Below, in pieces: positions 36,183-37,653 of a DNA stretch of 37,653 nt. The notes under the pieces were generated by a model, which saw nothing but the letters and a program-made list of their open reading frames with translations, was not told where the DNA came from and searched no databases. Source of the stretch: Roseibacillus ishigakijimensis (GTDB lineage Bacteria > Verrucomicrobiota > Verrucomicrobiia > Verrucomicrobiales > Akkermansiaceae); assembly GCF_016595415.1 (NCBI RefSeq), contig NZ_JAENIO010000041.1:1-37653 (forward strand). The letters run 5' to 3'. Numbering within the stretch: position 1 is the first letter of the stretch; each line of letters begins with the position of its first letter. Position numbers and translations under genes: made by a program.

Positions 36183-37206
36183 GCTTTGGCCTTGATTCCA
36201 AAACTGAGGCGGCGACACTATCCCCGCTCCAAGCCCAAGAGCGAGCATCGCTTTGCCTTGATTCCAAAACTGAGGCGGCGACACTCCCGCTCACCCCCTA
36301 CAATGTCATTAGCGCGCTTTGCCTTGATTCCAAAACTGAGGCGGCGACACTCGTCACGCCCCTGCCGGCAACAGAGGACGAGCTTTGCCTTGATTCCAAA
36401 ACTGAGGCGGCGACACTGGGTAATTACCGTGTGACCAACAAGACCCGGCTTTGCCTTGATTCCAAAACTGAGGCGGCGACACTTGGCTGGCTCAATCTCT
36501 ACCCGGTGGAGGTGCTTTGCCTTGATTCCAAAACTGAGGCGGCGACACTACGTCCACCTTGCGGCGGCGGATGACGCAGCTTTGCCTTGATTCCAAAACT
36601 GAGGCGGCGACACTAATTGCGATTGGCCGAAGTTGGCGACCGTTGCTTTGCCTTGATTCCAAAACTGAGGCGGCGACACTGGCTACCCTTTACTCTTATC
36701 CCAACTGTCGCTTTGCCTTGATTCCAAAACTGAGGCGGCGACACTTGCAACGGAAAAGGGGCGATTTCCGCATAGCTTTGCCTTGATTCCAAAACTGAGG
36801 CGGCGACACTACAATGGGGGACCCTCCCAGCACCAGCGACGCTTTGCCTTGATTCCAAAACTGAGGCGGCGACACTCTTCCAGTCACCATAGCGAGCCCA
36901 TTTCTTGCTTTGCCTTGATTCCAAAACTGAGGCGGCGACACTTCTACTAGGATCAACGAAAGCGGTTTGAATGCTTTGCCTTGATTCCAAAACTGAGGCG
37001 GCGACACTATCTTATTCACGATACAGTAAACTCTGCCGGCTTTGCCTTGATTCCAAAACTGAGGCGGCGACACTCAAGGCACCAAAAAAGCCCGTGATCC
37101 CAACGCTTTGCCTTGATTCCAAAACTGAGGCGGCGACACTATGTTTTGCAGAGAGATCGAGTGCGGACCGGCTTTGCCTTGATTCCAAAACTGAGGCGGC
37201 GACACT
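36183..37206 (+). CRISPR. CRISPR array, 16 repeats and 15 spacers, type II-C-like
   Basis: The repeat is 36 bp, starts GCTTTGCCTTGATTCC, continues AAAACTGAGG and ends CGGCGACACT. Copies begin at 36183, 36250, 36316, 36382, 36448, 36514, 36579, 36645, 36710, 36775, 36841, 36907, 36973, 37039, 37105 and 37171. Fifteen copies are identical; the first has one extra G (GCTTTGG), making 37 bp. Spacers are 30 bp except spacers 6, 8 and 9 (29 bp), all different. The spacer length, the repeat pattern (GCT start, short hexamer end) and the adjacent type II-like cas2 point to type II-C. The plus strand is the likely crRNA strand because the repeat ends in a -10-like hexamer. Which end is newest is not certain; the variant first copy suggests the left end is the old one. 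Confidence 0.97.
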
Positions 37207-37223
37207 CCGTCGCCGCCTCAGTT
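37189..37223. promoter_or_regulatory. Perfect 15-bp hairpin made by the last repeat and an inverted copy
   Basis: AACTGAGGCGGCGAC inside the last repeat (37189-37203) is followed after 5 bp by its exact reverse complement GTCGCCGCCTCAGTT (37209-37223). On the minus strand the hairpin is followed by TTTT from the repeat, giving a good intrinsic terminator for cas2 transcripts; on the plus strand CTTATT follows, a weaker terminator for array transcripts. Confidence 0.7.
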
Positions 37224-37269: not shown

Positions 37270-37572
37270 TCACCAGAGTTCGATTTGCTCGGGGATCTCT
37301 TCGGGGTCAACTTCTTTGGCAGGTTTTCCATGAATGATGAAAGCCCGTTCCCACTGGGCTTTGGTGATGAACATGGCTCTTACGGAGCCTTCGCAAGGGA
37401 CCATCTGCCGGACGCGTCGGATGTGCGTTTCTTGGCGGGCGAAGGTGACACAAGGTCGGGCGTAAACACTGAATTGGATCATCTGAAAACCGTCGTCTAA
37501 GAGGAATTTACGGAAGTCGGTGGCTCGCTTCCGTTCCTCTTTCGTTTTGACCGGGAGGTCATTCGCGTCAGG
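37270..37572 (-). pseudogene. cas2: Cas2, 5'-truncated, no start codon
   Basis: Cas2 dimers bridge Cas1 during spacer acquisition. The reading frame from 37560 down to the TGA at 37270 is plainly Cas2 of the type II-C kind: DLPVKTKEERKRATDF, then LLDDGFQMIQFSVYARPC, then HIRRVRQMVPCEGSVRAMFI, and the end PEQIELW. The conserved Asp of the first strand remains, but the residues that should precede it (Met ... V-x-F) are replaced by PDAN and an in-frame TAA at 37573-37575. No ATG, GTG or TTG occurs before the internal Met at 37482, which would yield a 70-residue fragment lacking a third of the fold. It lies 63 bp beyond the array and points toward it. Confidence 0.85.
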
Positions 37573-37653
37573 TTAAGAGCCTAACCGATTCGTAGCCAGC
37601 AAATTAGATTGGCAAAAACCACCTTTTTCCCTTGACAAGTCGAGCAGCGCGGC
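37573..37653. other. Sequence upstream of cas2, unidentified
   Basis: Where cas1 would be expected, no Cas1 C-terminus can be read in any minus-strand frame. The cas2 frame upstream of the TAA is open to the window edge (ends ATNRLGS) but is not recognised. An inverted repeat GGTTA-N6-TAACC lies at 37571-37586, next to the cas2 break, and a perfect -35 hexamer TTGACA at 37632-37637 (plus strand) points out of the window. Confidence 0.4.

Follow-up and report, generated by a model that had tools for sequence, protein, structure and literature searches.

The cas2 gene of a type II-C CRISPR-Cas9 system in Roseibacillus ishigakijimensis is probably split by an insertion sequence, and a hairpin spans the leader-repeat junction of the array

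Results

The cas2 gene is cut at the contig end and continues on a second contig

We analysed the whole contig NZ_JAENIO010000041.1 (C128; 37,653 nucleotides, hereafter the window) from the draft genome of R. ishigakijimensis (4.14 Mb, 192 contigs), and found at its right end a cas2 gene that has almost certainly been interrupted by an insertion sequence (IS). A multicopy IS of the IS4-family type would have transposed into cas2 about 19 codons past the start and duplicated 10 bp of the target, and the operon that was hit is that of a type II-C CRISPR-Cas9 system, in the order anti-repeat RNA, cas9, cas1, cas2 and array. The features at this end of the window are as follows:

37270-37559, minus strand: 3′ part of cas2, open to its stop and without a start codon, from frame reading and profile matches
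37550-37559, no strand: 10-bp target-site duplication, identical at 10 of 10 bases to the copy in the left flank on C105
37560-37653, plus strand: IS end of 94 bp with the terminal inverted repeat CATTCGCGTCAGGTTAAG; the contig stops inside it, and it recurs on other contigs
37571-37586, no strand: GGTTA-N6-TAACC motif, internal to the IS end

A sequence-only reading of the window had described a Cas2 frame that is open but has lost its first strand and start codon, and our analysis agreed with it. On the minus strand the frame stays open between the junction and its stop codon at 37270, and it matched Pfam PF09827 (1.4e-14, profile positions 10-73 of 74) and NCBIfam TIGR01573 (1.5e-16, positions 9-89 of 96). 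These matches begin at profile positions 10 and 9, indicating that the first strand is absent. An in-frame TAA lies four codons ahead of DLPVKTK with no start codon between them, and the first ATG within the fragment yields 70 aa, leaving the conserved beginning without a start of its own. The same reading had taken GGTTA-N6-TAACC as the mark of the junction. The motif is indeed present, but it lies inside the repeated element and was rejected as the junction, the true cas2/element boundary being at 37559/37560.

Searching the host genome for cas1 identified three copies, one of which lies near the end of C105, a contig that terminates 114 bases past the cas1 stop codon. C105 carries an open cas9 (1240 aa; TIGR01865, 202 bits against a cut-off of 100) and an open cas1 (316 aa; TIGR03639, 154 bits against a cut-off of 120), followed by the beginning of a cas2 that overlaps the end of cas1 and then runs into the other end of the IS. 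As it stands on C105, this 5′ fragment stops after 26 residues. When the flanks on C105 and C128 were joined minus one copy of the 10 bp, an open cas2 of 111 codons was obtained, with the element positioned after 18.7 codons. cas9, cas1 and cas2 thus belong to one operon adjoining the array, cas2 being split by the insertion, and judging from the rejoined sequence nothing is deleted at cas2. The gene looks start-less in the window because the assembly broke inside the repeated element. In this draft assembly, the link between the two contigs consists of the shared duplication and the complementary halves of one gene. The earlier reading had named as its alternative an insertion element beyond which the remainder of the operon would lie, and had proposed a search to the right of 37653 for cas1, cas9, tracrRNA or an IS. 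That alternative was borne out by IS ends at both edges, the 10-bp duplication and the cas9-cas1-cas2 start on C105, where all the items of the proposed search were located (the tracrRNA as its anti-repeat).

Element ends pair by exact 10-bp duplications

The terminal 94-95 bases of the window are repeated, with 99-100% identity, at the extreme ends of C135, C161, C164, C133 and C122, and the last 92 bases of C105 represent the opposite end of the same multicopy element. Both ends share the terminal inverted repeat CATTCGCGTCAGGTTAAG and diverge beyond it. Ten left-type ends (C105 included) and six right-type ends were catalogued in the genome. All sixteen distinct ends carry CATTCG, and a 12-bp duplication with an element beginning ATTCG was for this reason replaced by the 10-bp duplication.

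We then compared every right flank with every left flank, exactly, over the 10 bases adjoining the element. A left partner identical at 10/10 bases was found for five of the six right ends, C128 included (C128/C105, C161/C163, C164/C127, C133/C136 and C122/C11), and the best non-partner agreed at 7/10. The right end on C135 had no matching left flank among the ten (best 4/10 bases). The five exact pairs indicate that the element makes 10-bp duplications, and that C128 and C105 flank a single insertion. Within the genome the element ends are near-identical (97-100% over about 92 bp), which together with the exact duplication suggests that the insertion into cas2 may be recent.

A related element encodes a DDE_Tnp_1 transposase

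Thirteen stretches (13) of Verrucomicrobiota assemblies contain the end pattern of the element, and in 10 of them it lies within about 200 bases of a stretch end. One stretch from another Verrucomicrobiales assembly (L051) holds both termini (249-1635, 1387 bp; 1 and 0 mismatches in 18), and the element there encodes a 412-aa transposase matching PF01609 (DDE_Tnp_1, 9.9e-21). Y(2)R(3)E(6)K, which we take to be the signature of the IS4 family, is visible by eye in this transposase, a protein of the relative and not of the copy on C128/C105. The last 27-28 residues of an L051-like transposase were detected at 10 element ends in the present genome, C105 included (70-71% identity), and a protein search with the transposase gave two further weak matches inside C133 (37-39% identity). 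PF01609 itself had no match in the host genome, which we take to mean that the middle of the element is unassembled. We file the element as IS4-family type, putatively IS231-like, by features that we presume to be those of the group. No second terminus was found in L044 at up to 3 mismatches, and none of 57 other genomes carried the same element end. Two contigs of one other Verrucomicrobiota assembly (L043 and L050) have the IS terminus twice in tandem, 21 bp apart.

All 29 relatives with retrieved loci have a cas2 match

A Cas9 search in 58 genomes matched three, namely the host, G014 and G027, and the full loci of the latter two have the order cas9-cas1-cas2-array, as in the host. Searching 386 genomes of the order for cas1 gave 36 at E<=1e-70, host included, and loci were retrieved for 30 of the 36 (29 relatives and the host). 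The sequence-only reading had suggested aligning related genomes across the junction, and this comparison yielded a cas2 match in all 29 relatives, 28 of them spanning residues 1-111 and one spanning 1-97. The cas2 frame has 110-112 aa in 28 of the 29, and in L074 it extends to 228 codons. The three other sampled genomes of the genus had no such Cas9 (E<=1e-3) and no such Cas1 (E<=1e-70). Within this sample, the sequences place the cas2 insertion in the host genome specifically. Peptide patterns used to find named Cas9 relatives in genome contigs matched 32 stretches, none of which was confirmed.

The array is intact and predicted to be frozen

36184-37206, plus strand (putative crRNA sense): CRISPR array with 16 repeats (36 nt each) and 15 spacers (29-30 nt)

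The array was claimed earlier to be otherwise intact, and this held: all 16 repeats and 15 spacers are present, with change confined to the first (left) repeat at 36184. One base is inserted close to the 5′ end of this repeat, within the segment that pairs with the anti-repeat; the other repeats are uniform, and the last repeat adjoins cas2. We infer the plus strand as the crRNA sense from the putative anti-repeat upstream of cas9. There, a repeat-like segment reached a score of 16, the next best in the 16-kb stretch scoring 11, and on the strand opposite to cas9 a terminator-like hairpin with seven T comes after it. Its duplex with the repeat was computed at -30.8 kcal/mol, compared with -22.9 on average for 200 shuffles (sd 3.2, minimum -34.8). 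Given that this energy falls within the shuffled range, the identification of the tracrRNA anti-repeat is based on how nearly identical the segment and the repeat are. G014 has a comparable segment upstream of its cas9, and no clear anti-repeat was seen in the 330 bases upstream of cas9 in G027. Rfam at gathering score returned a tRNA as the sole match in the window and no match in L014. Spacer targets were searched for in the host's own genome, where none appeared at E<=1 except the hairpin arm described below, and among phages and plasmids, where the best matches (E 0.3 and E 1) were not significant.

According to the available part of PMC12080349, many type II-C arrays have an altered first (extra) repeat, and new spacers enter at the last repeat. 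The last repeat here is the one adjoining the broken cas2. No functional Cas2 would be made, so that Cas1-Cas2 integration into the C128 array would have ceased, while Cas9, guided by the anti-repeat RNA and the 15 spacers already present, should still be able to cut. The best inference that the sequence offers is thus a system predicted to keep interference and to lack adaptation, and the frozen array of the earlier reading, predicted to be unable to gain spacers, is likewise a reasonable reading.

The genome contains two further cas1-cas2 pairs. One belongs to a second complete II-C locus (L016) on C157, a contig of 6944 bp, with a cas9 of 1129 aa, cas1, a cas2 of 109 aa and at least 26 repeats. 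C157 begins and ends with an identical 63 bp that is common to an end of C156 and C106, its end matching C106 over 98 bp at 99%, and C156 and C106 joined at the shared end give an open frame of 294 codons. From the terminal 63 bp and this open frame, the II-C locus seems to sit at the 3′ end of a gene between direct duplications. The other pair (L015), at about 11820-15125 of C126, forms a third cas1-cas2 locus, whose array has repeats of 37 nt and spacers of about 35-41 nt.

Alternative explanations of the broken cas2

With these two pairs in the genome, we see a small chance that adaptation goes on, the insertion being tolerated and another cas1-cas2 pair serving the C128 array in trans. However, the repeat of the complete II-C locus on C157 differs in sequence from that of the C128 array, and its cas2 is 42% identical to the split one.

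It is quite improbable that the break is an assembly artefact or a minor variant in a strain mixture whose cas2 is mostly intact. Repeats do break assemblers, and this is a draft of 192 contigs. However, an intact-cas2 majority should have let the assembler join C105 and C128, and element ends of the same structure are seen at many further sites. Five insertions, the one in cas2 included, pair by their duplications. A minority of cells might possibly have an uninterrupted cas2.

We consider it highly improbable that the start of cas2 and the operon upstream of it were lost to deletion or rearrangement, with the element end brought there by chance or by inter-copy recombination. The ten left-type and six right-type ends make such recombination possible, and the unpartnered right end on C135 would fit it. 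However, the absent cas2 start and the whole operon were found on C105, where they break off at the same 10 bp, and inter-copy recombination would give non-matching duplications. The earlier account of an operon cut by a recent deletion or insertion therefore stands in its second part only: loss of the operon is ruled out by its presence on C105.

Under the insertion of an IS into cas2, the apparent decay of the gene would be one event that parts memory (array, Cas9 and anti-repeat RNA) from recording (Cas1-Cas2). With one of two II-C systems hit, the strain would offer a naturally arisen candidate for an adaptation mutant, together with an internal control in the same genome.

A hairpin spans the junction of the leader and the last repeat

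37189-37223, plus strand: hairpin in which the 3′ half of the last repeat forms 15 perfect pairs with its inverted copy in the leader, the 5-nt loop lying across the leader-repeat junction

An IS in cas2, cut by the contig end, is a real but ordinary kind of damage, and the hairpin at this junction is the more interesting lead. We surveyed the leader and the first repeat after cas2 at 26 loci (25 of the 29 relatives and the host), omitting L074, L077, L088 and L096, in which no repeat of the expected form was found. In the helix score, G-T pairs were permitted and a single mismatch was penalised. Matched leader-repeat pairs scored 12.4 on average (median 14, range 5-18), compared with 5.4 for 602 mismatched combinations (95th percentile 9, maximum 11), and the highest mean among 300 leader shuffles was 7.5; the loci are related, so these statistics are not a formal probability. 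A score of at least 9 was reached at all 19 loci belonging to families f1 and f2 versus 0 of 7 of f4, and by 18 of 23 distinct repeats, a cut chosen after the scores had been seen and whose lowest passing scores (9 and 10) lie inside the mismatched range. At the f1 and f2 loci, the leader arm tracks the sequence changes of the repeat; L036 and L037 have the hairpin at the same place. By eye, the junction hairpin is absent from the second II-C locus on C157, which has a hairpin within the leader instead.

On the plus strand the junction hairpin is terminator-like, although a scan for such sites found 4 versus 2.3 (sd 1.6) in shuffles, which is weak evidence. We tentatively propose that the junction palindrome could be a conserved element, so far undescribed, of the type II-C systems of this order, the leader holding an inverted copy of the variable half of the repeat and following its changes. 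Template switching perfects quasi-palindromes, and as a neutral cause it might instead have produced the junction hairpin. If the hairpin has a role, it is likely that of a terminator insulating the array from the convergent cas operon, or of a mark of the integration site; both are predicted from the fact that II-C arrays grow at the last repeat. A repeat-following hairpin at the growing end of the array poses a testable question on how II-C arrays are insulated or extended.

Leader-repeat hairpins have been tied, in the part of PMC13187072 at hand, to systems in which extraneous crRNA stems from the leader-side first repeat. That published role, in which the first repeat is kept from yielding an extraneous crRNA, would not account for the junction palindrome. 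The survey of over 650 II-C systems in PMC12080349, in the portion accessible, covered the region upstream of the first repeat and found no leader-repeat hairpin in II-C systems; the array end in question is opposite to the one with the junction hairpin. Neither of these two sources, as far as their available text goes, describes such a hairpin on the last-repeat side of II-C arrays, and we recognised no other literature on it.

Comparison with known systems

The element shares with the IS231-like group of the IS4 family terminal inverted repeats starting with CAT, a 10-bp duplication and, in the relative L051, a DDE_Tnp_1 transposase. It differs in that the transposase of this copy is known only by its last 27 residues, and its place in the IS231-like group is putative.

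With type II-C systems the host locus shares the gene order, a Cas1 of the type II model, an array adjoining cas2 and an altered first repeat. Neither csn2 nor cas4 was noticed among its ORFs. It differs in its interrupted cas2 and in the hairpin at the last repeat, of which the available portion of PMC12080349 makes no mention.

Disrupted cas genes, mostly cas9, have been reported in Mollicutes (PMC6882279, from the part available). We recognised no literature on an IS in the cas2 of a type II-C system, which is no proof of absence. The available text of PMC10309648 describes a comparable case in Flavobacterium psychrophilum CN46, where a type II-C locus is likewise interrupted by IS with target-site duplications. 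In CN46, however, an IS982 lies between the tracrRNA and cas9 and an IS256 inside the array, whereas the element of R. ishigakijimensis lies in cas2. Both parts of the CN46 array and its cas genes are reported there to be transcribed.
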